From: Bacteroidaceae bacterium
GTDB lineage: Bacteria; Bacteroidota; Bacteroidia; Bacteroidales; Bacteroidaceae
Direction of reading: 5' to 3'
Length of the DNA stretch: 40,262 nucleotides
NCBI GenBank assembly: GCA_017546505.1
Contig: JAFYWV010000042.1
Span: 1 to 40,262, forward strand
Shown: positions 1 through 12,106 of the stretch, in pieces
Numbering within the stretch: position 1 is the stretch's first letter
Layout of the letters: each line of letters starts with the position of its first letter
Notes under the pieces: generated by a model
Seen by the model: only the letters and a program-made list of their open reading frames with translations
Databases searched by the model: none
What the model was told of the DNA's origin: nothing
Made by a program: the position numbers and the translations under genes

Positions 1-1
1 C

Positions 2-226
2 AATATCTTCTGTGCTGATATGGATTTGATTACCGGTAGAGGAATAGAAGGATTTGCAGTTCCTTATATGTGGCCAACAGTTCCATTTGGTTATCCTTTC
101 AGTACAGGAATCGATGACTTTATACCGTGTTACAAGAAATCAGCAAAGAAACTAGGTGCATCGAGAATGAAAGATATAATGATAACCCACAGTAAGAATA
201 ATTTAAATGTAAGATTGTTCTATTGA
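2..226 (+). CDS. 3' end of an unknown gene (partial)
   Basis: An open frame enters from the left edge and stops at TGA 224-226, giving at least 75 residues. The first internal Met is at 20, but the frame is open before it (N-I-F-C-A-D-M), so the true start probably lies outside the window. The visible part is rich in aromatic residues and Gly/Pro (YMWPTVPFGYPF) and ends in a basic stretch (KKSAKKLGASRMKD). I recognise no family and assign no function. It could be the tail of a larger gene of the same accessory element. Low certainty that it is translated. Confidence 0.4.
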   Translation, partial: NIFCADMDLITGRGIEGFAVPYMWPTVPFGYPFSTGIDDFIPCYKKSAKKLGASRMKDIMITHSKNNLNVRLFY

Positions 227-348
227 ACTCTATATGAATATCACTTTTAAAAAGGTTGTTAAGATATAATAGTAGCCAATTCATCTCTGCCACTAAATAC
301 TTTTGCAGTAAATGGTAAAATCACAACCTTCAATGTCTGTAACCAACA

Positions 349-356
349 TATTTTTG
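349..356 (+). promoter_or_regulatory. Candidate -7 box for the GIY-YIG gene
   Basis: TATTTTTG fits the Bacteroidetes -7 consensus TAnnTTTG and ends 20 bp before the ATG at 377. A second match, TACTTTTG, is at 298-305. Neither has a clear TTTG -33 box at the right distance, so this is weak. Confidence 0.35.
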
Positions 357-376
357 TACTAAAATCAAATTAGAAT

Positions 377-718
377 ATGGAAATTACAAGCATTGATTGC
401 AGAGATTATAAGGCAGAGCAAGTGATAGCGCTTCTCTTTGACATTCATCCAGAACTCCAAAATAGCAGAAGAAAGAGGAAACGTGTATATATTGGAGTAA
501 CCAACGATATCAATAGGAGAGCTCGTGAACACAACATCTCCATTGAAGAGATTATCTTCTATGCTCAGACTGCAGCCCAATGGGTGGCCGCAAAAGTTGA
601 GGAAATCGCTCATGAACAAGGTTTTAAAATTGGCGATGTAAAATATGGAGGCTGTGGCACAAATAGCTACTCCATATATGTTTATGCTTATGTAATCACT
701 AGAGATTCGAAACAATAG
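377..718 (+). CDS. Degenerate GIY-YIG-domain protein
   Basis: A 113-residue protein whose centre reads VYIGVTNDINRRAREHN (from about residue 37), the YIG half of the GIY-YIG nuclease fold with the following conserved Arg (R47). A Glu pair (E75-E76) and an Asn (N96) lie where the metal-binding Glu and late Asn of the family are expected. The first GIY strand is not recognisable: residues 20-36 are a charged, Arg/Lys-rich stretch. Family members are nucleases or repair proteins (UvrC, homing enzymes). With half of the signature missing, activity is uncertain and it may only bind nucleic acid. It is monocistronic and convergent with the ATPase gene, with a shared hairpin terminator between them. 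Confidence 0.7.
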   Translation: MEITSIDCRDYKAEQVIALLFDIHPELQNSRRKRKRVYIGVTNDINRRAREHNISIEEIIFYAQTAAQWVAAKVEEIAHEQGFKIGDVKYGGCGTNSYSIYVYAYVITRDSKQ

Positions 719-767
719 CAGGTTAGATTCTTAGGAAGACCTTTGTCATCCTGGTGGTAAACAAAAC

Positions 768-795
768 GAGAGAGAACTTTTAACGGTTCTCTCTC
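768..795. terminator. Bidirectional hairpin terminator
   Basis: GAGAGAGAAC at 768-777 pairs perfectly with GTTCTCTCTC at 786-795 around an 8-nt loop. T-rich sequence follows on the + side (ATTGCTTTTC) and on the - side (GTTTTGTTT). It sits between the convergent GIY-YIG and ATPase genes, so it can end both transcripts. Confidence 0.8.
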
Positions 796-808
796 ATTGC
801 TTTTCTGA

Positions 809-1948
809 TTAGATTATTTGTCCGCTCCAAAGCATTTTAAAGAAATCGAGCACATAAATCATCTCTATTCCATTTGCTTCACGTGTCATTTTGTCTAACG
901 AAACGATGATTTTTCTTGCATCGGGGTGTTCTTCGGCAAATGTCTTAAGATTCTTTTTATGCTTGGTTTGGACCTCATCGGTAGATTTGATTTCAATAGC
1001 GATACGGGCATCACCTATTATGGCATCAACCTCTATACCGGTATATGTTCTCCAATAGGACAGTTTTTCTGTTGATTCGGTATAGCCCAAATAAGCGACA
1101 ATCTCCTGAATGACCAGATGCTCAAAGGCGTGTCCGAATTCATCGGTACCGCGTTTAAGGTTTGTTCTGCCCAACAGATAGTTTACAACACCAACATCGA
1201 AATAGTAGAAGCGTGGAGCCTGCACTAATTTTCTCTTGATATGTTTGGTGTATGCAGGTATTTCGTATCCGACCAAAGTGTCGTATAGTATCTGAAAATA
1301 GGCTGCAACGGTTTTTGCAGACACACCGCAGTCGGCTGCTATATTCTCATAATTCAGTATCTCGCCATCGCATATTGCGGCAACCTCCAAAAAACGTTCG
1401 AATGAAACGATGTCCCTAACCAGCGCTTCTTCTTTTATTTCTTCCTTCAAGAAAATATCAACGTATGCCTTCAAGCGTCTTGTTGCGTTTTCTATCATAT
1501 AATGACGAGGAATCATACCGTTCTGAATAGCCTTATAAATGTCGAAATCAGGAATCTCGGCACTCACCAATGGGTAAAAGAACATCGGTATAGCTCTTCC
1601 ACCAAGAGTGTTGGATGACTGCTTTTTCAACTTTCTTGCACTTGAGCCGCAAAGAATAAACCTTATATCCTTATTTGTCATAAGCCAATGAACCTCATCG
1701 AGCAGTTCGGGTACCTTTGGAATCTCATCAATTATCACCAATGTTCCCGCAGGTTTATTCTGAAGCATCTCTCGAAGTAGTTCGGGGTTCTTTTGAAACC
1801 TTTTTCTAATATCGGTGTTCAGAAGGTCGTAATAGATCGTATCAGGAAACAACTCCTTCAAAAGAGTTGATTTACCTGTCTGACGTGCTCCTAACAAGAA
1901 ATTTGCATCGTCAAGACGATTTTGAATATCGATAATACGTTTATACAT
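809..1948 (-). CDS. AAA-family ATPase with DUF4143 C-terminal domain
   Basis: A 379-residue protein of the AAA_14/DUF4143 class. The Walker A motif is GARQTGKST at residues 20-28 (Lys26) and the Walker B motif is TLVIIDE (Asp74-Glu75). A sensor-like CGSSARKL follows, then a winged-helix-like middle and a C-terminal part with EVDAIIGDARIAIEIKST. That last motif is D...ExK-like and resembles PD-(D/E)xK nuclease folds often found at the end of this family. The length is typical for the family and I see no disruption. The biological role is not established; such genes are abundant in Bacteroidetes and often lie in accessory regions. The start is the ATG at 1948, preceded by a promoter and a palindrome. 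It lies downstream of the five-gene operon on the same strand, but with its own promoter. Confidence 0.85.
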   Translation of the reverse strand: MYKRIIDIQNRLDDANFLLGARQTGKSTLLKELFPDTIYYDLLNTDIRKRFQKNPELLREMLQNKPAGTLVIIDEIPKVPELLDEVHWLMTNKDIRFILCGSSARKLKKQSSNTLGGRAIPMFFYPLVSAEIPDFDIYKAIQNGMIPRHYMIENATRRLKAYVDIFLKEEIKEEALVRDIVSFERFLEVAAICDGEILNYENIAADCGVSAKTVAAYFQILYDTLVGYEIPAYTKHIKRKLVQAPRFYYFDVGVVNYLLGRTNLKRGTDEFGHAFEHLVIQEIVAYLGYTESTEKLSYWRTYTGIEVDAIIGDARIAIEIKSTDEVQTKHKKNLKTFAEEHPDARKIIVSLDKMTREANGIEMIYVLDFFKMLWSGQII

Positions 1949-1992
1949 AATTGGTGTACAAATTAACTGTTTGCTTCTAAATATATTTGAAA

Positions 1993-2048
1993 ATCCGAAT
2001 TATAATTGCTCATTTTGATTGAATATCCGAATTGCGGATGCAAATATA
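1993..2048 (-). promoter_or_regulatory. ATPase promoter with operator-like repeats
   Basis: On the minus strand TATATTTG (2048-2041) matches the -7 consensus TAnnTTTG; the -33 position has only TTGA. Right at the expected transcription start lies the palindrome ATCCG-aattg-CGGAT (2025-2039). Its left half, ATCCGAATT (2025-2033), is repeated directly at 1993-2001, 32 bp away, which is about three helical turns. This looks like a repressor operator, perhaps autoregulatory. Box and repeats are seen; the regulation is inferred. Confidence 0.5.
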
Positions 2049-2360
2049 AAAACTTTTTTTCTTATCATTCAATTATATCATTTAAAATTTAAACAACGTT
2101 TGTAACATTTGGTAAGAAGTTTTTTTTGAACACGATTCTCTTTTTGTGGTTCTTTGCTTACTACGGACTGGTCGATAATTCTATGTTATACGCTTCCCCT
2201 TACGCCATCCTCCGCTAACGCTCGGCTAGGGAAAGACTTTACCTTGAATGAGACCCCTGAATATTTAATCTCAATAAAAAAGTATTATACCCATATTCTA
2301 CTAACCTGGAGCGAAGCGGAAGGAGGCTAAACTGAACGGAGTGAAGGTTAGACTGGACAT

Positions 2361-2428
2361 ACTGACTTGTATTTCCTTTAAAAGCCACAAGCCAAAGGCT
2401 TGAGAAACATAAAGGTTTTTCAGTCAGT
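2361..2428. repeat. Three-tier nested hairpin 1
   Basis: ACTGACT (2361-2367) pairs with AGTCAGT (2422-2428), CCTTTA (2375-2380) with TAAAGG (2410-2415), and CAAGCC (2388-2393) with GGCTTG (2397-2402). The internal loops are nearly symmetric (7/6 and 7/7 nt) and the apical loop is AAA. Three perfect helices stacked in register are unlikely by chance. Confidence 0.7.
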
Positions 2429-2458
2429 CTGCAAAAGAAATTGGAACTCCTTTAATTC

Positions 2459-2522
2459 CCTGACAAACAATCTTTGTATCTTCAAGCCATTGGCTTGGTA
2501 TTTCAAAGAGAACAATGTCAGG
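2459..2522. repeat. Three-tier nested hairpin 2
   Basis: CCTGACA (2459-2465) pairs with TGTCAGG (2516-2522), TCTTTG (2471-2476) with CAAAGA (2504-2509), and CAAGCCA (2483-2489) with TGGCTTG (2491-2497). It has the same architecture as hairpin 1 and the same CAAGCC/GGCTTG apical helix, 30 nt further on. Confidence 0.7.
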
Positions 2523-2677
2523 AGACAAGTCGTAATCCTCGGCTTCGCCTCACATTACTCCCCTTCCATTCGCTTCGCTCATTACAGGAAGTTGTAAGGA
2601 GATTTTATATTCTTCTCTGTAGGTGAGTTTTTCAACCCCTATATAAGATTAGTCCGTAGTGCAAAAACCCACACATG

Positions 2678-4369
2678 CTATGATACAACAAGGATTATGT
2701 TCAGTTTTCCCAAGGCTTTGACAAGTGGGTTATAAGCCCTTCTTCGCATCTCTTTCTTTGGGCATATTACAGCCAATTGTGAAAGAGGAATACTCAAGGT
2801 GTAGCTATGTCTGGTTTCGATCTCAGCTTTAAGATCGGGATACATTGTTGCAAGTTTCTCAATATCTCCTTTCATCGGCTCTCTGATACCACAGGCTTTC
2901 GCAATGTCGTCAAACCAAGGCTTCTTACTCTTTGGCTTACTTTTTGGCGTGTACTTATTCATATTCAAATAATTCTTTAGTTGGTTAATAAATAATGGTT
3001 TGTAATCTTTTGTGTAATATACTTTGAAGTTACCGCCCGTCAGATTTCTTATTCCAATGCGACAGATAAGCTGAGTATAATACCAGACTCTGTAATCCTC
3101 GATAGTAGTATCCGAATTGAAGGCAGTTCTAACACGGCCTGCAAAGTTCTCAGGTGTATTCCAGTCACCAAGGAGTATTATATTCTGATAGTTCCTATAC
3201 TGATTAGTGCTCTTTGTATCGGCTGCACCAAAATAGGTTATTGAGTAGTTAGTTCCATTTAGAAAACCTCTTCTCATTAGGTCGGCATCAATAAGGTCTT
3301 TCCATTCCGATTTACCGCTTTGCTGATTATCAATACGAGAACCTGTATTTTTCCAGCATACAATCAGCGTTTGACTACCTTCTTCTACCTTCAAAGTTTT
3401 CTCTACTTCGTCCATCATAGTATCAAAGGTTGCCTTCTTAAACTTCTCGCTTCTCTTCTGTGGTTCTACATCGAGAGGGATAAAGTCTACAGTAGAGTTG
3501 TATTTCCCTGGTATATCAAGCAAGGTGATATTCTTGATTCCTCTTAATAGCACCTCTCCAACGCCTTCGTAGAACAGTATATGCGTCTTGATATTTTTCA
3601 GACAAATATCGGTTGGGTAGAACTGCAACTCCATCTTATCCTGCTTTCCTCTATTGATCCAAGCATTCCAAAAGCGAGGAATGATAGCAAGGGTTGTATC
3701 TCTCTTCAGACGACCTAGCTTGTGATTGCTCTTGCTAAAAGCTTCGGGTGTTCCTTCTACAAACTTCATATAAGAGTCTTGCATGTCACTTGGGCTCTTA
3801 CACTGCCATAATTTGCCTCGTTTTTCAGTCAAGCATCCGAGAACGGCCCGGATTATCTTTGCGAATGGTACATAGAATAGAGGGGTTTCATCAAATAATA
3901 TCCACTTACGGAGATCTTCCCTCTTCATAAGCGACTCAAAGTCTCCATCAAAAGCGCCAGGATCTGTTTTCGGATTGAAGATAAGGAAGTAATGAATCAG
4001 GTCACTCCAAAACCTAACGTGGGTAAGCAGGATTACCTTCTTCAGCATTATTTCCTCCGGGTGATCTCGATAGGCATCAAGTTCAGTTGTTGCATCCCCG
4101 TGGAGTCGCAAAATATGTGTCTCTGCTACAATGCCGTTATCCTTGAGGTGATTATACATCTTATCCACCTCAGCCTTGGTGTCGACACAGTAGATCACTC
4201 CTTCATCCTGTTTGAGGGCGATAAGTTCCTTTATTCCTTCTGTCTTACCGGCTCCACAACCAGTGCTGATGAGATATCCTCCCTGCCGGTCTGGTATATC
4301 AAGAGTGCCATTCTTGAATGTGGCTTCAAAACCTGATCCAGTGGAGTGCGGCTTGATTTTCTTTGCCAT
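2678..4369 (-). CDS. SF2-like helicase/ATPase, last gene of the accessory operon
   Basis: A 563-residue protein. Walker A is STGCGAGKTEG (about residues 35-45, Lys42). The DExx box is WILFDETP (Asp160-Glu161). In the C-terminal half, ENFAGRVRTAF and QLICRIGIRN resemble the late Arg-bearing motifs of superfamily 2 helicases. The C-terminus is basic and Lys/Pro-rich around KYTPKSKPKSKKPWF, suggesting nucleic-acid contact. I infer a DNA- or RNA-dependent ATPase; the substrate is unknown. The start ATG is 13 nt downstream of the conserved junction hairpin at 4383-4403. The gene ends 4 bp from the right inverted end of the hairpin-rich element, so its last few codons or its original terminator may have been altered by that element. 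Confidence 0.7.
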   Translation of the reverse strand: MAKKIKPHSTGSGFEATFKNGTLDIPDRQGGYLISTGCGAGKTEGIKELIALKQDEGVIYCVDTKAEVDKMYNHLKDNGIVAETHILRLHGDATTELDAYRDHPEEIMLKKVILLTHVRFWSDLIHYFLIFNPKTDPGAFDGDFESLMKREDLRKWILFDETPLFYVPFAKIIRAVLGCLTEKRGKLWQCKSPSDMQDSYMKFVEGTPEAFSKSNHKLGRLKRDTTLAIIPRFWNAWINRGKQDKMELQFYPTDICLKNIKTHILFYEGVGEVLLRGIKNITLLDIPGKYNSTVDFIPLDVEPQKRSEKFKKATFDTMMDEVEKTLKVEEGSQTLIVCWKNTGSRIDNQQSGKSEWKDLIDADLMRRGFLNGTNYSITYFGAADTKSTNQYRNYQNIILLGDWNTPENFAGRVRTAFNSDTTIEDYRVWYYTQLICRIGIRNLTGGNFKVYYTKDYKPLFINQLKNYLNMNKYTPKSKPKSKKPWFDDIAKACGIREPMKGDIEKLATMYPDLKAEIETRHSYTLSIPLSQLAVICPKKEMRRRAYNPLVKALGKLNIILVVS

Positions 4370-4382
4370 ATTTCTAAATTAC

Positions 4383-4403
4383 GGAGGCGCTCTCACCACC
4401 TCC
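4383..4403 (-). promoter_or_regulatory. Junction hairpin A (Sel1 gene / helicase gene)
   Basis: In the minus-strand RNA, GGAGGTG, loop GTGAGAG, CGCCTCC forms a 7-bp stem including one U-G pair. It starts 11 nt after the Sel1 gene's stop and ends 13 nt before the helicase ATG. The same hairpin occurs at 5531-5549 and 6348-6368. There is no T-tract, so it is not an intrinsic terminator. Confidence 0.7.
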
Positions 4404-4414
4404 CGGTTATTTCA

Positions 4415-5515
4415 TTACCCCATCTCCCACGGGTTGTCTTGAACGATTGCTATTCCTCGGAGATTATACTTTTGTGCCTCTTCATTATTTTTAGCGACTC
4501 CGATTCCATGGCATAAACAATCTGCAACAAGATCTGTGGCCACGTTGTTATTCATGTCTGCAGCTTTCTTTAGGTATTTGAAACCTTCTGCAAGATCTTT
4601 ATCAACTCCAATTCCTCTTTGGTAACAGGCTGCAAGGTTTATGTAATCCTGGCTGGTTCCTATTCCCATATCGCAAATAAGTTTCCTGTAGTAGAATGCT
4701 TTACTATCATCTCTTGGCACGCCAATTCCCTGTGTATAAATATTTATAACAGCATTATAGGCTTGGCGTTGAAATGGTTTCCATCCACCCTCAACATAGA
4801 ATGGAAGATCATCTGTATTCACATCTATCCTAGCACATTCCAGGAACAATGAAACAGCTTTCCTGGCGTTGGTTTCAGTACCTAGGCCGTAGAGAGTACA
4901 ATATCCAACAGCATACATACTATTGTATAGGCTCTCATGAAGCGAAGCTAAATAAAATTCACTTCCTCTTTTAGATTTATCTTCAAGTTTTTTTTTACAC
5001 TCACACATAGCTCTTGCCCAAAGATCGTAAGCAGCTTCTTCATCTTTGTGTTCACATCCCCAACCGTTAAAAATGTATTGTGCTAATCTGTTGTCAATAA
5101 GATAGAAAGGACCGATTTCTGTATTCAGATAGTCCAAAAGCTCGTACACCTTATTGATATCTTTTTCAAACCCCTTTACGCCGTTTTCAAGACAGTATAT
5201 CCAATACTGCATATATAAGGGCTCATTCATCGCTTCCTGCATTATCTCGTATGTCGGTTTGTTGATGAACTGTCGTCCACTAGAGCGAAAAATGCAATCC
5301 AAACTTACCCCGGGCTTCGTAATCGGTTCATCTGTGATTTGGGCAATCCCTTTCTCCTCGTCTGCGGATGGTCCATTAGTTTCCACTGCCGGAACTATAG
5401 CTTCTGGCATAATCTTCTCATCGATGCTACAAAGTCTCTCGCTTTTGCAAGTCTCATCGTTTCTCACAGTTGCAGTACTCTTTGCAGCAACTTTTCCTTT
5501 TTTTATTTTTTTCAT
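4415..5515 (-). CDS. Sel1-repeat protein
   Basis: A 366-residue protein. The first 75 residues are charged and low in complexity (MKKIKKGKVAAKSTATV at the very start), probably a flexible basic tail. The rest contains about four to five Sel1-like helical repeats, recognised by the G-x-G-V/T signature: YCTLYGLGTETNARKAVSLF, IYTQGIGVPRDDSKAFYY, ACYQRGIGVDKDLAEGFKYL and CLCHGIGVAKNNEEAQKY. Sel1 repeats form superhelical scaffolds for protein-protein contact, so it is likely an adaptor for the neighbouring proteins. No signal peptide is seen, so it is probably cytoplasmic. It is flanked by junction hairpins on both sides and lies between the DUF5131 and helicase genes of one transcript. Confidence 0.8.
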   Translation of the reverse strand: MKKIKKGKVAAKSTATVRNDETCKSERLCSIDEKIMPEAIVPAVETNGPSADEEKGIAQITDEPITKPGVSLDCIFRSSGRQFINKPTYEIMQEAMNEPLYMQYWIYCLENGVKGFEKDINKVYELLDYLNTEIGPFYLIDNRLAQYIFNGWGCEHKDEEAAYDLWARAMCECKKKLEDKSKRGSEFYLASLHESLYNSMYAVGYCTLYGLGTETNARKAVSLFLECARIDVNTDDLPFYVEGGWKPFQRQAYNAVINIYTQGIGVPRDDSKAFYYRKLICDMGIGTSQDYINLAACYQRGIGVDKDLAEGFKYLKKAADMNNNVATDLVADCLCHGIGVAKNNEEAQKYNLRGIAIVQDNPWEMG

Positions 5516-5530
5516 AAATTAAAGTATTAT

Positions 5531-5549
5531 GGAGACTCTCACCGCCTCC
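5531..5549 (-). promoter_or_regulatory. Junction hairpin B (DUF5131 gene / Sel1 gene)
   Basis: In the minus-strand RNA, GGAGG (5549-5545) pairs with TCTCC (5535-5531) using a G-U pair, around a loop containing the same GTGAGAG. It is 6 nt after the DUF5131 stop and 15 nt before the Sel1 ATG. Compared with hairpins A and C it has lost two bases on the 3' arm, so its stem is shorter. Confidence 0.65.
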
Positions 5550-5555
5550 TGGTTA

Positions 5556-6296
5556 TTATTCTGTTATATTATCCTTTGGCATATTCTGTACAATCTTACC
5601 TTGCAGTAATTTACCGTTGGCCTTAACGCTTCTCTTTACACCGTCTCTTCCCCAGGCTCCCCACTGCTTAAAGAAGAAAGGTATTCCGTTAGCATCAGCC
5701 TGCCTCTTGATGTCAAGAACCCATGTTTCTGCCATAGGACGAGCGTTTTTACCACTCTCGCCTCCTACGATAATCCAGTTAATGCCCGTTAAGTCAAGAT
5801 CACCCAGCTCCCCCAAGAGCGGCTCAATCGATAGGAATCTTTTGGGAGTTGCTACTTCCCTAAGACAGTCAATGCGGTGTTTAACGTCGGCATTCTCTAC
5901 GGTAACACCTACCCATAAATTGCTTGGTACATCGCGGTCCTTGAAGTATGCAACCATCTCCCCCGCACGCTTGGTCAGCATCTGGAAAGTGTGTTGAGGG
6001 TTGTCTTCTATGACCTTAAGTATTTTGTCAATGAAATCCTTAGGAACATCTTTGTGGAAGGGATCGCTCATGGAACAGACAAAGACCTTACGATGTTTTT
6101 TCCAAGTGTACGGCTCATCCAGTGCTTTGGGGTGTAACGTGAGTTTAAAACCATTGGCATACTTGGCATTACCCATCGCCTTCAGTCTTTCTGCTATTAC
6201 CAAGGCATAGCAATTAGCACAGCCGGCAGAATGCTTGGTACATCCTGTTACTAGATTCCAGGTTTGCTTGGTCCAATCAATTTTTGTTTTTTTCAT
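5556..6296 (-). CDS. DUF5131 (phage Gp37/Gp68) three-Cys protein
   Basis: A 246-residue protein of full family length. The family signature lies at the N-terminus: IDWTKQTWNLVTGC followed by two more cysteines, with Cys19, Cys26 and Cys29 in the spacing C-x6-C-x2-C. Further family motifs are VFVCSMSDPFHKDVP, LWVGVTVEN, RFLSIEPLLG and WIIVGGESGKNARP. The fold resembles radical-SAM/photoproduct-lyase-like TIM barrels and the Cys cluster suggests an Fe-S site, but the reaction is not known. Members occur in phages and mobile elements, often beside a separate three-Cys-motif partner protein, which is absent here. Its neighbours are the DGQHR/ParB-like gene upstream and the Sel1 gene downstream, each across a junction hairpin. 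Confidence 0.88.
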   Translation of the reverse strand: MKKTKIDWTKQTWNLVTGCTKHSAGCANCYALVIAERLKAMGNAKYANGFKLTLHPKALDEPYTWKKHRKVFVCSMSDPFHKDVPKDFIDKILKVIEDNPQHTFQMLTKRAGEMVAYFKDRDVPSNLWVGVTVENADVKHRIDCLREVATPKRFLSIEPLLGELGDLDLTGINWIIVGGESGKNARPMAETWVLDIKRQADANGIPFFFKQWGAWGRDGVKRSVKANGKLLQGKIVQNMPKDNITE

Positions 6297-6347
6297 TAGT
6301 TACTGATTTTATTGCCAATACAGAGCAATGGCGCGGTTTGTATTATT

Positions 6348-6368
6348 GGAGGTACTCTCACTACCTCC
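6348..6368 (-). promoter_or_regulatory. Junction hairpin C (ParB-like gene / DUF5131 gene)
   Basis: In the minus-strand RNA, GGAGGTA, loop GTGAGAG, TACCTCC forms a perfect 7-bp stem, extendable by one pair. It starts 9 nt after the ParB-like stop and ends 51 nt before the DUF5131 ATG. Against hairpin A, the seventh stem pair changes from G-C to A-U with pairing kept, which supports an RNA structure. Confidence 0.72.
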
Positions 6369-6377
6369 ACTTCCTTG

Positions 6378-7865
6378 TCATTGAACTTTGCTTGTTATGT
6401 GTTTGGAACTTATTGAGTCTTTAAGTCTATCAACGGCGTCTTTTGCCTCCTGTGCTTTCCTTTGAGCATTATCATTGGCGGCAATAGCTTTAGCTAGTCT
6501 CTCCTGATCAATATTGTTCTTAACGGCCAAGTCGTGCTTGATAAGTTCGCTTACGCGCCCTGACTTGAGAGGTTTCTTGGTTAACTTCTCTCGGTTCTCT
6601 TCATCAACTTTTTCAATGTAAGTTGCTATACGCTCATCAAGTTCGGACTCCATCTGAGTTAGTACCTCCTCGCTATATCCAAGCTTCAGAAAGGCTTTGT
6701 AGCTATCCTTAACGAAGGTGTTCAGTTGACCAAAATTCTTCTCGGTAATAAATCGCTTGACCGTTTCGCGATCGTCCGCCGACATTGTGCCCATAAGAAG
6801 TTTCATGTTACGGCCAAAAACTCCTTTCTCCTTGTCTGGGGTGTTTATATGGGTATGTATTATGGCATATAGAAGTTCTATCTTCTTTGCCTCCTTGCAA
6901 GCAGCAAAGTTCATCATACAAGCATTCAAGATGCCTTTGCCGCGGTTTGCATTATCCTCGTTAAACTTCGTAGTGTCTCGTCCGGCAATAAGGTCCGAAA
7001 TCCTGGTTGTATTAAGTACGAACGTAAGTGCACATTCTGCCGCTTTGTTTGTAATGCCATATCGTTCCTGAAGGATTTTGGCTTCTCCGTAGAGTTTGTT
7101 CGTGGTGATGCCTGCATTTACATTGGAGTCGCGCAAATCCTGGCCATTCCAATTTCTTTGATCTGAGTTTATCAGTTTTATGGTGTCCAAAGGATGCATG
7201 CCGTTGAATTCGTTCAATTCAAGCTCAACGTCGACCTCGGAATGAAACTCGCAGACAGTTAAGCGGTGCTGACCGTCATAGACAATGAGGTATAGCTCAA
7301 TGTCCGGAGTGTCGAGTGTTATCTGATTGCCATCAAGGTCATAGACTTCAATGTCTTTGAACCTCTCCAGGATAGGTCGAAGTGGTACGACATAGCAGCT
7401 ACGTGTAAATCGCATGCTGTCTTTCACACTTTTGTAAAGTGCTTTAACATGGCTGTTGTTTACTTCTCGGTTGAATTTGAAAAAGCAGATCTTTAAACCA
7501 GCTTTCTTTGCTTCGAGGTAGCTCATGCATACCTTTCTGATTATCTTGGGTATCTTATCGCCCAAGCAGGCAAGTAGAACGGCGACGGTAGAGGTTTCGA
7601 TAGTTTCTACCTGGTTGTTCGCATCTGTTGCAGACTCATTATCACTCACTGTAGCAACCTCTTGTACACCGCTGCCGGGCGTTGTCTCGCAAGCACCAGT
7701 CTGGGGTACCATTGAGCTCTGGAAATCTGTCACTTCCATAATTGTTTCTTCGTTGTTTGATTGGTTGATAACTGGAGCAGCCTCCGCTTGCTCGTTAAAA
7801 TTCTCGGTAGTGTTATCTCCGGCTACTGTCTTTACCGAAGAGTTTTTGTTTGTTACATTACGCAT
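6378..7865 (-). CDS. DGQHR/ParB-like domain protein
   Basis: A 495-residue protein. Residues 1-95 are polar, Thr/Glu/Asn-rich and probably disordered. Residues 105-260 carry a ParB/Srx-like fold with LYLIVYDGQHRLTVCEF (DGQHR at 197-201), the motif shared by ParB N-terminal and DndB-type DGQHR proteins. The C-terminal 80 residues are highly charged and likely coiled-coil (DNAQRKAQEAKDAVDRLKDS). ParB folds bind DNA and may hydrolyse CTP; DndB-type proteins regulate or assist DNA modification. Which applies here is unknown. The ATG overlaps the end of the HTH gene by 8 bp (ATGCGTAA), so the two are translationally coupled. It is the largest upstream gene of the operon. Confidence 0.75.
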   Translation of the reverse strand: MRNVTNKNSSVKTVAGDNTTENFNEQAEAAPVINQSNNEETIMEVTDFQSSMVPQTGACETTPGSGVQEVATVSDNESATDANNQVETIETSTVAVLLACLGDKIPKIIRKVCMSYLEAKKAGLKICFFKFNREVNNSHVKALYKSVKDSMRFTRSCYVVPLRPILERFKDIEVYDLDGNQITLDTPDIELYLIVYDGQHRLTVCEFHSEVDVELELNEFNGMHPLDTIKLINSDQRNWNGQDLRDSNVNAGITTNKLYGEAKILQERYGITNKAAECALTFVLNTTRISDLIAGRDTTKFNEDNANRGKGILNACMMNFAACKEAKKIELLYAIIHTHINTPDKEKGVFGRNMKLLMGTMSADDRETVKRFITEKNFGQLNTFVKDSYKAFLKLGYSEEVLTQMESELDERIATYIEKVDEENREKLTKKPLKSGRVSELIKHDLAVKNNIDQERLAKAIAANDNAQRKAQEAKDAVDRLKDSISSKHITSKVQ

Positions 7866-8151
7866 ATCTACTATTGATTATATTTGTCTGCATGAATTTC
7901 TCGAGGTCAGAGCGCTTTACATATATTTTCCTGCTAATCTTCGTGTAGGGGATGATTTTCTTGTCCCTATAATTCTGCCAAGTCTTTCGGCAAATGCCAA
8001 GTGTTCTCATAACCTCTTCAGAGTCTAGATAATCTTCTTTTGCTTTCTCCTTATTAATAGAAAGGCTTTCACATAACCGATCAACCTTTTCTATTAAGTC
8101 GTCGAATTTATCTGCATCGACGATTAAAATCCTTGTTTCTTTTTCTTTCAT
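7858..8151 (-). CDS. Excisionase-like helix-turn-helix protein
   Basis: A 97-residue protein. Residues 1-38 look helical and acidic (VDADKFDDLIEKVDRLCESL). Residues 40-90 are a MerR/excisionase-type winged HTH: DYLDSEEVMRTLGICRKTW, YRDKKIIPYTKISRKIYVKR, then SDLEKFMQ. This HTH_17 form is common at the head of Bacteroidales integrative elements, where it acts as excisionase or as operon regulator. It is the first gene of the leftward operon, overlapping the ParB-like gene. Its upstream region holds a promoter box, four phased repeats and a TGTTTATGT copy, all possible binding sites for it. Confidence 0.85.
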   Translation of the reverse strand: MKEKETRILIVDADKFDDLIEKVDRLCESLSINKEKAKEDYLDSEEVMRTLGICRKTWQNYRDKKIIPYTKISRKIYVKRSDLEKFMQTNIINSRYA

Positions 8152-8168
8152 AAGTTTAATATATTTAA

Positions 8169-8177
8169 TGTTTATGT
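8169..8177. promoter_or_regulatory. TGTTTATGT copy in the HTH gene leader
   Basis: TGTTTATGT occurs here, between the predicted transcription start and the HTH ATG, and again at 8710-8718 and 8721-8729, with the complement ACATAAACA at 8656-8664. Candidate binding site for the HTH protein or for an integrase. Confidence 0.45.
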
Positions 8178-8201
8178 TTTGTTTTCTGAGCTTTACGAAA
8201 G

Positions 8202-8209
8202 CAAAGGTA
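8202..8209 (-). promoter_or_regulatory. -7 box of the HTH operon promoter
   Basis: On the minus strand TACCTTTG matches TAnnTTTG and lies 50 bp before the HTH ATG. The -33 region lacks TTTG, which suggests a promoter needing an activator. The phased repeats at 8237-8306 lie directly upstream. Confidence 0.5.
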
Positions 8210-8236
8210 GCAAGAATTAAAGGGGTGGCTTTTGGC

Positions 8237-8306
8237 AGAAATTCACCATAAAATATAGAAATCCGTTTCCTTGAAATAGAAACTCATAACTCTAAAACAG
8301 AAACTT
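8237..8306. repeat. Four helically phased AGAAAYY direct repeats
   Basis: AGAAATTC at 8237, AGAAATCC at 8257, AGAAACTC at 8278 and AGAAACTT at 8299 have start-to-start distances of 20, 21 and 21 bp, two helical turns each. Read on the operon strand they are RRTTTCT repeats immediately upstream of the -33 position. The arrangement fits an activator array or iterons. The rest of the gene-free stretch 8152-8786 is AT-rich with no credible coding sequence. Confidence 0.55.
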
Positions 8307-8651
8307 AAAAACTGTTAAAATGGGCTTTTTATACGCGAGTTAGTGTTGAAAGTGAATATATAGGCGATGAGTTCAAGAAAAAACGATTTTTTTTGAAAAA
8401 AAGTGATTTTATATTAGGATATGCCTTGTGGCTATCTCTGAATAGGGTGGTTGCTCTTGGAGTGGCCGATTTAGAACGTGATTCTATCGTTTTTTTGCTC
8501 CTTTTTGCGAATTATCACCAGATATGAGAATTTTTGCTAATATTTTGTGGCTTATTTGTTGTGTTGTCAAGTCAAATATCAGCTTAAGGATAAGGAGCAT
8601 TGCTCGAAATTTAGCGCTATTGCTGGTCTTGAGCTGTTAGTGCGTGTATGA

Positions 8652-8733
8652 TTTTACATAAACATATTTAGCCTGCTTCTTGTGAGAAACAGGCTATAAT
8701 CCGGGGAAATGTTTATGTAGTGTTTATGTAAAA
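8652..8733. repeat. Inverted TGTTTATGTAAAA repeats around a hairpin
   Basis: TTTTACATAAACA (8652-8664) is the inverse of TGTTTATGTAAAA (8721-8733). A further direct TGTTTATGTA is at 8710-8719, and between the arms AGCCTG (8670-8675) pairs with CAGGCT (8690-8695). The structure sits between the operon and the terminator of tRNA-Leu, at the presumed element boundary, so it may be a recombination or excision site. Confidence 0.55.
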
Positions 8734-8739
8734 ACAACA

Positions 8740-8772
8740 AACCCCTCATAAGAGCTTATCTTACAAGGGGTT
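8740..8772 (-). terminator. Terminator of tRNA-Leu
   Basis: On the minus strand AACCCCT (8772-8766) and AGGGGTT (8746-8740) form a stem containing an inner ATAAG/CTTAT pair, followed by TGTTGTTTTT. It begins 14 nt after the tRNA 3' end. Confidence 0.8.
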
Positions 8773-8786
8773 ATAAAGAGTGTTTG

Positions 8787-8872
8787 TACTCGAAGCGGGA
8801 CTTGAACCCGCACGGCGTTTAAATGCCAAAGGATTTTAAGTCCTTCGTGTCTACCGATTCCACCATTCGAGC
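8787..8872 (-). tRNA. tRNA-Leu (UAA)
   Basis: An 86-nt gene folding into a class II tRNA. The acceptor GCTCGAA pairs with TTCGAGT (a G-U pair at 1-72), with discriminator A. The anticodon arm AAGGA-CTTAAAA-TCCTT gives anticodon UAA. The long variable arm has GGC/GCC and the T arm is GCGGG-TTCAAGT-CCCGC. CCA is not encoded. Leu tRNA 3' ends are known insertion sites of Bacteroides mobilizable elements such as NBU1, and the accessory block lies exactly on this 3' side. Confidence 0.96.
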
Positions 8873-8908
8873 GACCTTTTATGTTGTTGTGGTTTGTCAC
8901 AACGGGTG

Positions 8909-8940
8909 CAAAGATATAATAAACGGGCGAGATATACAAA
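8909..8940 (-). promoter_or_regulatory. Promoter of tRNA-Leu
   Basis: On the minus strand TTTG (8940-8937), a 20-nt spacer and TATCTTTG (8916-8909) match the Bacteroidetes vegetative consensus TTTG-N19-21-TAnnTTTG exactly. The -7 box is 36 nt from the tRNA 5' end. Confidence 0.8.
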
Positions 8941-9032
8941 CTTGCTTTGATTTTTTACAGCAAGTGTTGTTTAATGTTTGCGGTTTGTCGCAAATGTGTA
9001 GCTTTTTGCCTGGCGTGGAAAGTGTTTTGTTC

Positions 9033-9554
9033 TTAGTTTCTTATTATTACCTCGGAGCCGTTGTCGAACACGCGGTATTGCCATAGCGGGCGGGTATCTC
9101 CTTCAAGGGCTATGCCGTTGCTGTTGAGGTCGAATCTTGTTGCGCAGTGGGGGCAGGTGGCATATCCCATCGTGTAGTCTATCTCTACACGGTAGCGGGC
9201 AAGGTCGCACCCGGGGCACGCCCAGTCGTATGCCATAAGAACACCGTCGCTAAAAATAGGAGTGCCTATTATCAGTCCGCCAAGACCGTAATAGAATTTT
9301 CCTTGTTGCAGATGTATCTGTGGAATGTTTATTGTTTGGGTCTTGCCCAGTGCGTCGGTGAGTCGGTACTCTCCTATATTTGCTCCTTGCCTTATGCAGA
9401 TGAATTGGCCGGGGCTGCGGGCTTGGATATAGGGGTGGACTGTACCGTCGAAAATGAAGTTGACGTGATAGCTCGAGTAGGGGTTCTCGCCTTCGCAACC
9501 GGCAAAGACGAGGATGGTTGTCAGCAACAATATAATATGGGTGAACTTGTTCAT
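9033..9554 (-). CDS. Lipoprotein with two CxxC pairs (Rieske-like region)
   Basis: A 173-residue protein. The signal peptide ends in the lipobox VFAGC (Cys20), so it is probably anchored in the periplasm or outer membrane. The C-terminal half resembles a Rieske [2Fe-2S] fold in spacing (a CPGC motif at 113-116, CPHC at 134-137, then ATRFDLNSNG and a closing WQYRVF). However, the two pairs are C-x2-C rather than C-x-H and C-x2-H, so a mononuclear Fe or Zn site or a redox role is as likely. Partners are not visible. I chose the Met at 9554 because it gives a normal signal peptide; Met codons at 9557 and 9569 are alternatives. It lies 68 nt after argH, behind a hairpin. Confidence 0.75.
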   Translation of the reverse strand: MNKFTHIILLLTTILVFAGCEGENPYSSYHVNFIFDGTVHPYIQARSPGQFICIRQGANIGEYRLTDALGKTQTINIPQIHLQQGKFYYGLGGLIIGTPIFSDGVLMAYDWACPGCDLARYRVEIDYTMGYATCPHCATRFDLNSNGIALEGDTRPLWQYRVFDNGSEVIIRN

Positions 9555-9576
9555 CATAAGTATATGCAATGTAAAC

Positions 9577-9609
9577 GCACGGGGATGTTGTATATTGCTT
9601 TCCCCGTGC
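9577..9609. terminator. Hairpin after argH
   Basis: GCACGGGGA (9577-9585) pairs with TCCCCGTGC (9601-9609) around a 15-nt loop, between the argH stop and the lipoprotein gene. On the argH strand the T-tract is weak; on the + side a T-run follows. It is probably a terminator or an RNA-stabilising hairpin for argH. Confidence 0.6.
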
Positions 9610-9622
9610 TGTTTAACTTTTT

Positions 9623-10963
9623 TTATCTGCCCAACAGTGTCTGTTCGGCATCACGTGCTTTCTGAAAGTCCATTTCGTCGTATGTGCGGTACATAATCTC
9701 TCTTATCTCTTTGTTGCATAGGTTGCCTATGCTGCCTTCGTGGGTGTGGTGCACCTCTTTATGGGGTGTGAATGTGCCTGCTTCAATGTCGAGCCCCACT
9801 TTCTTGTAGGCGTCGCGGAACGGCATACCCTCTGTGGCAAGGCGGTTTACCTCTTCGACGCTGAACATTGTATCGTAGCGGCTGTCGTTGAGGATCTCTT
9901 TGTTCACTTCTATGCGCTCAATGATGTATGTTGCCATTGAAAGGCACTCCTTGATGTCGGCAAATGCTGGCAGGAAAAGCTCTTTGATGACTTGTAGGTC
10001 GCGGAAATATCCGCTTGGCAAGTTGTTCATAATCATTGTGATGTCCATTGGGAGTGCTTGCAGGCGGTTGCATTTTGCGCGCATAATCTCAAAGACATCG
10101 GGGTTTTTCTTGTGTGGCATAATGCTGCTGCCTGTGGTGCACTCGGCCGGGAGCTTGACGAACCCGAAATTCTGTGAGTTGAACATACAGGCATCAAAAG
10201 CCATTTTTGAGAGTGTGCCGGCAACGCTTGCAAGGGCAAAGGCTACGTTCTTCTCGCACTTGCCGCGTCCCATCTGTGCATATACGACGTTGTAGTTCAT
10301 TGAGTCGAACCCTAACAGTTCTGTTGTCATTGTGCGGTTTAACGGGAACGATGAACCATAGCCGGCGGCAGAACCCAACGGGTTGCGGTTGCACATTCTG
10401 TATGCGGCCTGCAGAAAGAGCATATCGTCGGCAAGGCTCTCGGCGTATGCTCCGAACCACAAGCCGAATGACGATGGCATAGCCACTTGCAGATGGGTGT
10501 AGCCCGGCAACAGGATTTCCTTGTGTTTCTCGCTCTGCTCAATGAGGGCGTCGAACAGCCCTTTTACGGCAGCGCAAACCTCCTGTAACTCGTTGCGCGT
10601 GAACAGCTTCAGGTCGACAAGTACCTGGTCGTTGCGTGAGCGGCCGCTGTGTATCTTCTTGCCGGTATCGCCCAAGCAGCGTGTGAGCATTAGCTCTACT
10701 TGTGAATGCACGTCCTCAACGCCATCTTCGATTACAAATGCTCCATCTTCTATGGTGGAGTATATGTTGCGCAACTCGCAGTGCAGACTCTCTGTTTCCT
10801 CTTGTGTGAGAAGACCGATGCTTTGCAACATAGTGCTGTGAGCAATTGAGCCGATGACATCGTAGCGGGCTAACAAAAGGTCCAGTTCTCTGTCGCGTCC
10901 AACGGTAAAACGCTCAATTTCGGGGTTTACGGTTGTGTTCTTTTCCCAAAGTTTCTTTGCCAT
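9623..10963 (-). CDS. argH: Argininosuccinate lyase
   Basis: A 446-residue enzyme of the fumarase/aspartase superfamily. It splits argininosuccinate into arginine and fumarate, the last step of arginine synthesis, in the cytoplasm. The superfamily signature TTGSSIMPHKKNPDVFE is intact, with the flexible SS loop that carries the catalytic Ser. GRSRNDQVLVDLKLF and LPGYTHLQVAMP are also family motifs. Length is normal. I chose the Met at 10963 (MAKKLWEKN), which aligns with known N-termini; the open frame extends to 11026 only because it runs through an untranslated hairpin. It is the third gene of the pyrE - SRPBCC - argH series on this strand. Confidence 0.95.
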   Translation of the reverse strand: MAKKLWEKNTTVNPEIERFTVGRDRELDLLLARYDVIGSIAHSTMLQSIGLLTQEETESLHCELRNIYSTIEDGAFVIEDGVEDVHSQVELMLTRCLGDTGKKIHSGRSRNDQVLVDLKLFTRNELQEVCAAVKGLFDALIEQSEKHKEILLPGYTHLQVAMPSSFGLWFGAYAESLADDMLFLQAAYRMCNRNPLGSAAGYGSSFPLNRTMTTELLGFDSMNYNVVYAQMGRGKCEKNVAFALASVAGTLSKMAFDACMFNSQNFGFVKLPAECTTGSSIMPHKKNPDVFEIMRAKCNRLQALPMDITMIMNNLPSGYFRDLQVIKELFLPAFADIKECLSMATYIIERIEVNKEILNDSRYDTMFSVEEVNRLATEGMPFRDAYKKVGLDIEAGTFTPHKEVHHTHEGSIGNLCNKEIREIMYRTYDEMDFQKARDAEQTLLGR

Positions 10964-10984
10964 AGTCATATATATTGTACAAAC

Positions 10985-11037
10985 GGTGTTCCGGGGTGAT
11001 GTCGAACGCGCCATACTCCGGAACACCTTTTTTTATG
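10985..11037 (-). promoter_or_regulatory. Leader hairpin before argH
   Basis: GGTGTTCCGG (10985-10994) and CCGGAACACC (11028-11037) form a perfect 10-bp stem with a 33-nt loop. It fills the 81-nt gap between the SRPBCC stop and the argH start, 21 nt from the ATG. A run of seven T follows on the + strand, so it could act as a terminator for + transcripts. On the argH strand it is preceded by A's and has no T-tract, pointing to a leader structure or processing site. Confidence 0.55.
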
Positions 11038-11044
11038 TTTCAGC

Positions 11045-11455
11045 TTAATAAGCTATCAATGATAACGCTTCGGCCATTTTTTCAATACCCTCTTTGAGTG
11101 GTTTTTCAATCATTGAGCGTAGCATAAAGTTTATCTCTGCTTTTACTACTACCCGCATCTTGGCTGCCTCGTCTCCGTTGGGTATAATCTGTATCCATAG
11201 GGTTATGGGAACAGGTGAGCCCACAGCCTCGAGCTTGATACATTTAGGCTCTTCGCGCTCGACCACTCTGATGGTGACATTGCCCATTGGTGGTACGCTC
11301 ACAGTTGCCTCGTCACGGCTGTATGTGAGTTCCTTCACCTTGTCTTGGGGGAGCTTGTCTTTCAGTGCCTCAAGGTTGTTGAGGTCTTCCAGTTTTGCAT
11401 ATACCCTTGCCTGTGGATAGGGAATGTTTTTAACGCTGCTTTCGTATTGGCTCAT
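11045..11455 (-). CDS. SRPBCC-fold protein
   Basis: A 136-residue protein of the START/Bet v1-like (SRPBCC) superfamily, recognised by the order of strands and the final long amphipathic helix (MLRSMIEKPLKEGIEKMAEA). The family binds hydrophobic ligands in a cavity. The actual ligand here is unknown; such small proteins are conserved next to pyrE in Bacteroidales. No signal peptide, so cytoplasmic. It starts 6 nt after the pyrE stop, so the two are very likely co-transcribed. Confidence 0.75.
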   Translation of the reverse strand: MSQYESSVKNIPYPQARVYAKLEDLNNLEALKDKLPQDKVKELTYSRDEATVSVPPMGNVTIRVVEREEPKCIKLEAVGSPVPITLWIQIIPNGDEAAKMRVVVKAEINFMLRSMIEKPLKEGIEKMAEALSLIAY

Positions 11456-11461
11456 AAGCGG

Positions 11462-12106
11462 TTATTTCAGGTCGTTTCTCCATTCTGACGGGTTTGCACG
11501 CCACTCCTGGAGTGTTGGCATAACCTCCTCGGTGATGTAGCCTGTCTCCTTTGCCGCCTCGAGCACTGCTTCGTAGTCGGTGAGTGTGATGAGTTTTACA
11601 CCGGCATTCTCAAAAGCCTCGGTTGCAACGCCGAAACCGTATGTGAACGATGCTACCATACCGATTACCTCAACGCCTGCTGCACGCAAGGCATCAACAG
11701 CGCGCAGACTGCTGAGGCCGGTAGATACAAGGTCCTCTACGACAACAACTTTTGCGCCAGGATAGACGTCGCCTTCAATCTGGTTACCCATTCCGTGATC
11801 CTTTGCTTTGGGGCGTACATAGACGAATGGTTTTGCAAGCTCCTCAGCAACAAGAGCGCCCTGTGCAATTGCGCCTGTTGCTACACCTGCAACGATGTCG
11901 GCCTCGGGGAACTCCTGAAGAATGAGGTTCGCAAGTCCCAATTTTACGCGTGTTCGCAATGCCGGGAATGACAATGTCTTGCGGTTATCGCAGTAGAATG
12001 GTGATTTCCAACCCGATGCCCAAGTGAATGGTTGCTCGGGCTGCAACTTTACAGCCTTGATTTTAAGAAGCTCGGCTGCCAATGAAAGTTTTGATTTGTT
12101 TGACAT
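11462..12106 (-). CDS. pyrE: Orotate phosphoribosyltransferase
   Basis: A 214-residue enzyme that joins orotate to PRPP to make OMP in pyrimidine synthesis. The PRPP-binding loop is VVVVEDLVSTGLSSLRAVDA; the substrate region YVRPKAKDHGMGNQIEG carries the catalytic Lys/His loop of the family. WKSPFYCDNRKTLSFP is the conserved N-terminal segment. Length is typical. It heads the leftward group with the SRPBCC gene and argH. A possible -7 box TATATTCG lies at 12153-12146 on the minus strand, without a clear -33 box. Confidence 0.95.
   Translation of the reverse strand: MSNKSKLSLAAELLKIKAVKLQPEQPFTWASGWKSPFYCDNRKTLSFPALRTRVKLGLANLILQEFPEADIVAGVATGAIAQGALVAEELAKPFVYVRPKAKDHGMGNQIEGDVYPGAKVVVVEDLVSTGLSSLRAVDALRAAGVEVIGMVASFTYGFGVATEAFENAGVKLITLTDYEAVLEAAKETGYITEEVMPTLQEWRANPSEWRNDLK

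Follow-up and report, generated by a model that had tools for sequence, protein, structure and literature searches.

A shared hairpin at the spaced gene junctions of an operon in a Bacteroidaceae integrative island

Why does nearly the same small hairpin stand behind three genes of a single operon? The question is raised by a contig of a Bacteroidaceae bacterium (GenBank assembly GCA_017546505.1, contig JAFYWV010000042.1, positions 1 to 40,262; this whole stretch of 40,262 nt is termed the window in the following). A reading of the sequence alone (the sequence-only reading) had noticed these hairpins on the minus strand and suggested that they exert a post-transcriptional control common to the operon. 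The features concerned are, in descending order of position:

8786-8872, minus strand: tRNA-Leu adjoining the start of the island, probably the attachment site
8202-8209, minus strand: TACCTTTG, candidate -7 promoter element, seen by eye
7858-8151, minus strand: first gene of the operon, HTH_17 excisionase-like protein of 97 aa (Pfam HTH_17, 1.9e-13; PHROG excisionase/regulator, 1.4e-7)
6378-7865, minus strand: 495-aa protein with YDGQHR motif (neither Pfam nor PHROG match; 8-nt overlap with the preceding gene)
6348-6368, minus strand: hairpin A at the DGQHR/gp37 junction, GGAGGUA-GUGAGAG-UACCUCC
5556-6296, minus strand: DUF5131 protein, gp37 (Pfam DUF5131, 6.8e-99)
5531-5549, minus strand: hairpin B at the gp37/Sel1 junction, with a 3' arm shortened by 2 nt
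4415-5515, minus strand: Sel1-repeat protein (Pfam Sel1, 1.1e-23)
4383-4403, minus strand: hairpin C at the Sel1/helicase-like junction, GGAGGUG-GUGAGAG-CGCCUCC
2678-4369, minus strand: 563-aa protein, helicase-like by inspection (Walker-A-like GCGAGK motif; no Pfam match; one weak PHROG match, function not known)
2120-2677, minus strand: rod-like structured region of 558 nt, 3' of the helicase-like gene (MFE -176.9, z -6.69)

The operon and its three hairpins

Judging from gene order, the five minus-strand genes probably constitute one operon, which sits in an integrative island beside the tRNA-Leu; an att repeat was looked for and not found. DGQHR is what we take to be the family name of the 495-aa protein, the DUF5131 protein presumably corresponds to the phage Gp37/Gp68-like proteins and is labelled gp37 here, and TACCTTTG fits TAnnTTTG, which we take to be the -7 promoter consensus of Bacteroides. 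The structured region at 2120-2677 is an imperfect palindrome, whose DNA matched one of 200 genomes, namely its own, and a search of Rfam over this region gave no match near the gathering score. Near the far end of the island, an AAA_14/DUF4143 ATPase gene is situated on the minus strand (809-1948), which may or may not belong to the island.

The first two genes overlap and possess no hairpin at their junction, whereas each of the three spaced junctions (81, 40, and 45 nt) contains one, such that the claim of a hairpin at every non-overlapping junction of a five-gene operon is borne out (3/3). Coordinates, strand, and sequence of the hairpins were confirmed as well. Their common form is GGAGGYR-GTGAGAG-YRCCTCC, and the first G of GGAGG follows the upstream stop codon at a distance of 9 nt (A), 6 nt (B), and 11 nt (C), in agreement with the 6-11 nt reported before; if an extra U-A pair is counted in A, its distance becomes 8 nt, whereas those of B and C stay the same. 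The loop, described as identical, is so as a sequence but not as a predicted structure, where copy B exhibits a shifted loop (GGUGAGA instead of GUGAGAG).

Folded in isolation, the hairpins reach -12.1 (A), -9.6 (B), and -12.8 kcal/mol (C), with z values of -4.27, -2.36, and -2.65, respectively. The folds of the whole junctions (z -1.95, -1.98, and -2.58) are not outstanding against a smaller control of 44 genome junctions, 13 of which lie at z <= -2 (and 23 at <= -9.5 kcal/mol). For each junction, 20,000 dinucleotide shuffles were made, and the motif GGAGGNNGTGAGAG appeared in none of them; the three hairpins are real and beyond chance. The heptamer GTGAGAG alone occurs at chance frequency in the window (4 observed vs. 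4.27 expected), and GGTGAGAG shows no genome-wide enrichment (71 matches vs. 84 for the reversed control); only the hairpin as a whole is special, neither the heptamer nor GGTGAGAG alone. In two of the three window junctions, the hairpin ends 13-15 nt ahead of the next AUG, and hairpin A ends 51 nt before it.

Several known kinds of element were rejected for these junctions. Concerning intrinsic terminators, no U-run follows the stem: the 8 nt past A, B, and C contain 2, 3, and 4 T, the longest run being three, in keeping with the earlier statement that a T-tract is absent. Readthrough of the stop codon is opposed by tandem in-frame stops in B and C and by a further in-frame TAA before gp37 in A. 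A known Rfam family is likewise not indicated, since none of five covariance-model matches in window positions 1-12000 (E <=5), and none of four in the two related loci L064 and L065 described below (E <=2), fell on a hairpin.

As a control for hairpins behind stop codons in general, 94 same-strand junctions of 30-100 nt were taken from 790 kb elsewhere in the own genome and from the window beyond 9 kb, a hairpin being counted if it began 4-14 nt behind the stop, had six or more pairs, and reached <= -7 kcal/mol. Such a hairpin was found in 10 of the 94 junctions (8 of the 10 without a T-tract; 4 ending 10-25 nt before the start) and is, therefore, not unusual as such; what stands out is the sharing of one sequence rather than the occurrence of hairpins. 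The window (3/3 vs. 10/94; Fisher 0.002) consists of junctions chosen for their hairpins. Among 30-100 nt junctions of related islands that were not picked by hairpin, 3 of 6 possess one (L065 1/3, L240 2/2, L242 0/1; Fisher 0.028), or 2 of 5 without a hand-drawn junction of L240 leading to a small ORF (Fisher 0.11); all junction counts are approximate, as gene calling relied on a simple ORF rule. A stable stem right after the stop at a spaced same-strand gene pair is found for A, B, C, and the copy of L065, whereas the copy of L064, which follows its stop after 40 nt, lies outside the stop-proximal range. Elsewhere in the own genome (L261), an 81-nt junction carries a 17-bp post-stop hairpin without T-tract (z -9.42).

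Occurrence in the genome, the genus, and beyond

In the own genome, the exact pattern has three matches, all of them window copies, and the model R1 (E <=0.1) finds these three and nothing else. The random scatter of the motif that the sequence-only reading had named as contrary evidence is, hence, not seen. Intercistronic REP/BIME hairpins are similar in that they follow stop codons between genes of one operon; REP elements, however, have many dispersed genomic copies, whereas all three exact genome matches found here lie in one operon, and a REP/BIME element was therefore rejected.

Within the genus, clear copies exist in 3 of 44 genomes (the own genome, G303, and G327). If up to 3 mismatches are allowed, a pattern that misses copy B due to its deletion, the 44 genomes give 16 matches, four of which are known sites, and the other 12 compare with 14 in the reversed control. 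The exact pattern matched two of 295 genomes of the order, the own genome and G131, in which the site is situated inside an ORF on the opposite strand and partly in an ORF on its own strand. In 301 genomes of the family, the best match of R1 besides the own copies had an E value of 8.5e-4 (24.6 bits), and at E <=0.1 the matched genomes numbered 41 including the own one, vs. about 30 expected; G303 and G327 are absent from these matches, being presumably outside the 301-genome sample.

Viral contigs contained 24 matching stretches (16 in ORFs, 8 elsewhere), 0 of which were classed as same-strand junction, and the longer pattern gave 0 matches in them. The 80 listed of 97 stretches in genome contigs comprise 67 in ORFs, 12 elsewhere, and one junction (L117, i.e., G303); L153 (i.e., G327) was classed as elsewhere because the piece is short, and is an operon junction when read in L065. 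A 51-nt stretch with the hairpin of L065 reached a best E of 4 in phages and of 0.9 in plasmids. Outside the genus, no convincing junction copies were found in the order, family, viral, genome-contig, phage, and plasmid scans, the matches being chance-like. A signal general to Bacteroidales is, with 3 of 44 genomes in the genus and chance-like matches further out, not supported; within the collections searched, the hairpin is restricted to one island family.

The 3' end of gp37 was rejected as a source of the hairpin: in 29 further gp37 loci, taken from 36 other genomes matched by gp37, and in L209 (see below), the best R1 match had an E of 0.085. Under a more permissive rule that sets no energy limit, some predicted stem follows the stop in 8 of 28 gp37 loci. 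Concerning the proteins, the 495-aa and 563-aa proteins of the window and the helicase-like protein of L065 had no relatives in viral, phage, plasmid, and genome-contig searches, some of which depend on exact peptide stretches; the fused protein of L065 and the proteins of L240 do have relatives. Among the papers listed by literature searches, none dealt with the hairpin or the island.

Related islands and the level of constraint

The two relatives, G303 (locus L064) and G327 (locus L065), belong to the same genus as the host and were also recovered, independently of the hairpin, by homology to the 563-aa protein (3 of 150 genomes matched). Each contains one copy in the same orientation upstream of a helicase-like gene, at the Sel1/helicase-like junction in L064 and at the gp37/helicase-like junction in L065. 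L064 has the start of a close, though broken, helicase-like gene, and the stretch from the tRNA-Leu to the operon, including the first gene, is 92% identical between the window and G303 at the same tRNA-Leu. A tRNA-like stretch with GGTTCGAATCC (L064:7530-7640, minus strand) separates hairpin and helicase-like gene; ARAGORN and Rfam gave no tRNA call for it. The order in L065 is a 684-aa DGQHR-like/gp37 frame, the hairpin, a helicase-like protein with 22% identity to its window counterpart, a BT4734-like protein, and a phage-type integrase. The 684-aa frame (L065:5643-7697, minus strand) unites the DGQHR-like part and DUF5131, which are separate genes in the window. The excisionase-like and DGQHR-like genes are separated by about 210 nt (L065:7659-7868, minus strand) that fold at -52 kcal/mol, but a 143-nt part of this gap is within the shuffle range (z -0.19). 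The gene sets thus differ among the three islands, the cargo being mosaic.

The hairpin is 76-95% identical in all 10 copy pairs, whereas the 300-nt flanks (0.48-0.55) are at the level of the shuffle means (0.50-0.52; 30 single-letter shuffles per value), with the exception of gp37 in the B/L065 pair (0.96). Over the 30 nt immediately 5' of the hairpin, B, C, L064, and L065 reach 0.50-0.69 (0.90 for B/L065) vs. 0.44-0.52 in the shuffles, somewhat above these because the motif AATAACC, kept just 5' of the hairpin in four of the five copies, is shared. The hairpin and a short 5' flank therefore form a small patch of conservation, as would be expected if the hairpin is either under selection or transferred together with modules. 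The DNA of gp37 is about 90% identical between the window and L065 up to the hairpin (96% in the last part), past which there is no DNA match, and the DNA similarity of C and L065 is confined to the hairpin and a weak 5' flank.

A more distant island was reached through the fused protein of L065: MT838662.1 (L209, from human faeces, labelled Bacteriophage sp.), with the order integrase-like, excisionase-like (both assigned by inspection), DGQHR, LRR, a 115-aa protein, and the start of gp37. In L240, a contig of a viral collection whose DGQHR protein is 94% identical to that of L209, hairpins of unrelated sequence follow the stops of DGQHR (z -3.78), of the 115-aa gene (z -1.24, within the shuffle range), and of gp37 (z -4.72). 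The DGQHR-LRR junction of L240 measures 46 nt (7 nt after the stop, a 9-bp hairpin, and 16 nt up to the AUG), near the junction lengths of B (40), C (45), and L065 (46). As predicted structures, the hairpins of L240 and the window have the position in common, not the sequence. The expectation that homologous operons carry the hairpin holds, consequently, for the two genus relatives with one copy each, but not for the distant islands, which lack the sequence and have other hairpins instead.

Short records of 5-10 kb from human faeces labelled Bacteriophage sp. (L209, L242, L243, and L244) encode relatives of the island-family proteins and may therefore represent packaged satellites. Long structured leaders precede a gene of ~950 aa in L240 (12546-12777, plus strand), L064 (3925-4155, plus strand; -68.6 kcal/mol), and L242 (5713-5829, minus strand); those of L064 and L242 have a GGTGGAATAAAAAAGTNTGCAAAAAG stretch in common, and the ~950-aa gene of L240 contains a BT4734-like domain.

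Covariation had been proposed for stem positions 6 and 7 of A and C. Position 7 indeed exhibits a two-sided change (A-U to G-C), whereas the change at position 6 (U-A vs. U-G) is one-sided. After inclusion of the relatives' copies (an alignment of four sequences, with copy B left out), two pairs show two-sided changes and 28 of 28 cells are paired; the covariation is suggestive only, and weak, because its score is reached by 73 of 500 shuffles. In C, L064, and B, G-U pairs stand in for Watson-Crick pairs and the fold is kept, whereas a duplex DNA operator would lose its symmetry; this speaks for RNA rather than for a symmetric site in duplex DNA. All five copies are intergenic and point the same way with respect to the operon, and the seven loop letters, which are asymmetric, are unchanged in all of them. 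From these patterns, the constraint is likely to act at the RNA level.

A boundary between cistrons and its alternatives

With a probability of roughly 0.36, we favour the reading of an intercistronic RNA structure that is specific to this kind of mosaic integrative island and would separate cistrons behind the stop codon and travel with exchanged modules. It would be transcribed with the operon and fold 6-11 nt behind each window stop, marking the cistron boundary; there, ribosomes that continue scanning behind the stop codon would be held back, and the A/T-rich start of the following gene would stay unpaired; protection of the upstream mRNA end may be a further effect. The number of copies would increase through exchange of gene-plus-hairpin modules between islands. 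Of the shared post-transcriptional control suggested at the outset, the hairpin at all spaced junctions, the missing T-tract, and the copies at operon junctions in two relatives are supported, whereas an extension to Bacteroidales is not.

Comparable structures are described in two publications. According to a review (PMC12548453), predicted structure just 3' of a stop codon, the position also found here, correlates with lower translational coupling; the structures in the passages concerned are screened or gene-specific, whereas here one sequence recurs at three junctions. In Escherichia coli dusB-fis, disruption of a stem-loop near the gene end lowers translation of the next gene, and adjacent operon genes are argued to be structurally insulated on one messenger, as shown for one stem-loop (PMC5318159). 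That gene-boundary stem likewise keeps the next gene unpaired, but it lies inside the upstream gene, whereas the window hairpins stand between genes and their function is predicted.

Against the boundary reading, a sequence-blind boundary needs no conserved loop; the strict loop suggests that something reads the sequence as well. A sequence-specific RNA site for an island-encoded protein or small RNA, coordinating the operon genes, would account for the loop letters kept in five of five copies and for the upstream AATAACC. We regard it as doubtful: no recognised RNA-binding family is found among the Pfam and PHROG matches, the minus strand of 2120-8151 does not contain CTCTCAC, the complement of the loop, and the loop of copy B is shifted. 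Next after the boundary reading, and possible, is a joint at the DNA level, with short homology patches or folded single-strand sites serving recombination of modules and the RNA hairpin having no function of its own. The end of DNA homology at the hairpin in B/L065, the lack of similarity around it between C and L065, and the variable gene sets of the three islands would all be expected of such joints; the single orientation of all copies between genes, the RNA fold preserved by G-U pairs, and the lack of dispersal in the genome, however, would not, and the paired changes in A are not explained by recombination alone. Integron attC sites, which resemble the hairpins as imperfect palindromes in one orientation after each gene of a variable array, were rejected, since their core sites (RYYYAAC and GTTRRRY) are absent from the three window junctions; the recombinase of L065 matches Phage_integrase. 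We consider it unlikely, though conceivable, that the hairpin is a dedicated module tag of a satellite-like island family, i.e., a short RNA or single-strand DNA structure copied to each module end and read by an island-encoded factor, which would place swapped genes at once under common control, attC-like but on the messenger.

Intercistronic hairpins are also known as stems that process or stabilise mRNA. An RNase cut or 3' end protection would suit a stable stem directly after the stop, without T-tract, in an operon of unlike genes; it does not require a conserved loop, however, and we regard it as rather improbable. By far the least probable is a start signal for the following gene, of the Shine-Dalgarno or leader-peptide kind. 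In Shine-Dalgarno starts, GGAGG precedes the start codon by about 4-12 nt, and such a start is unlikely here because the distance of GGAGG is at least 29 nt to the next AUG and just 2 nt to the loop GTG. GGAGG in the 5' arm is complementary to the anti-Shine-Dalgarno core CCUCC named in PMC9976891, but the ribosomes of Bacteroidia, according to that paper, fail to recognise Shine-Dalgarno sequences since the 16S tail is hidden.

The boundary reading calls for reserve, considering the small number of five copies, the weak covariation, the 51 nt between hairpin A and the AUG, the position of the L064 copy 40 nt past its stop with a tRNA-like stretch ahead of the helicase-like gene, the modest enrichment in related islands, and the post-stop hairpins at 10 of 94 junctions elsewhere. 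If it is true, the hairpin would show how genes swapped among mosaic mobile elements are kept independent on one messenger in a phylum with low use of Shine-Dalgarno sequences, and it would constitute a compact natural insulator for Bacteroidales. If, instead, the DNA joint or the module tag is true, the islands would have revealed a small new way to build gene cassettes.
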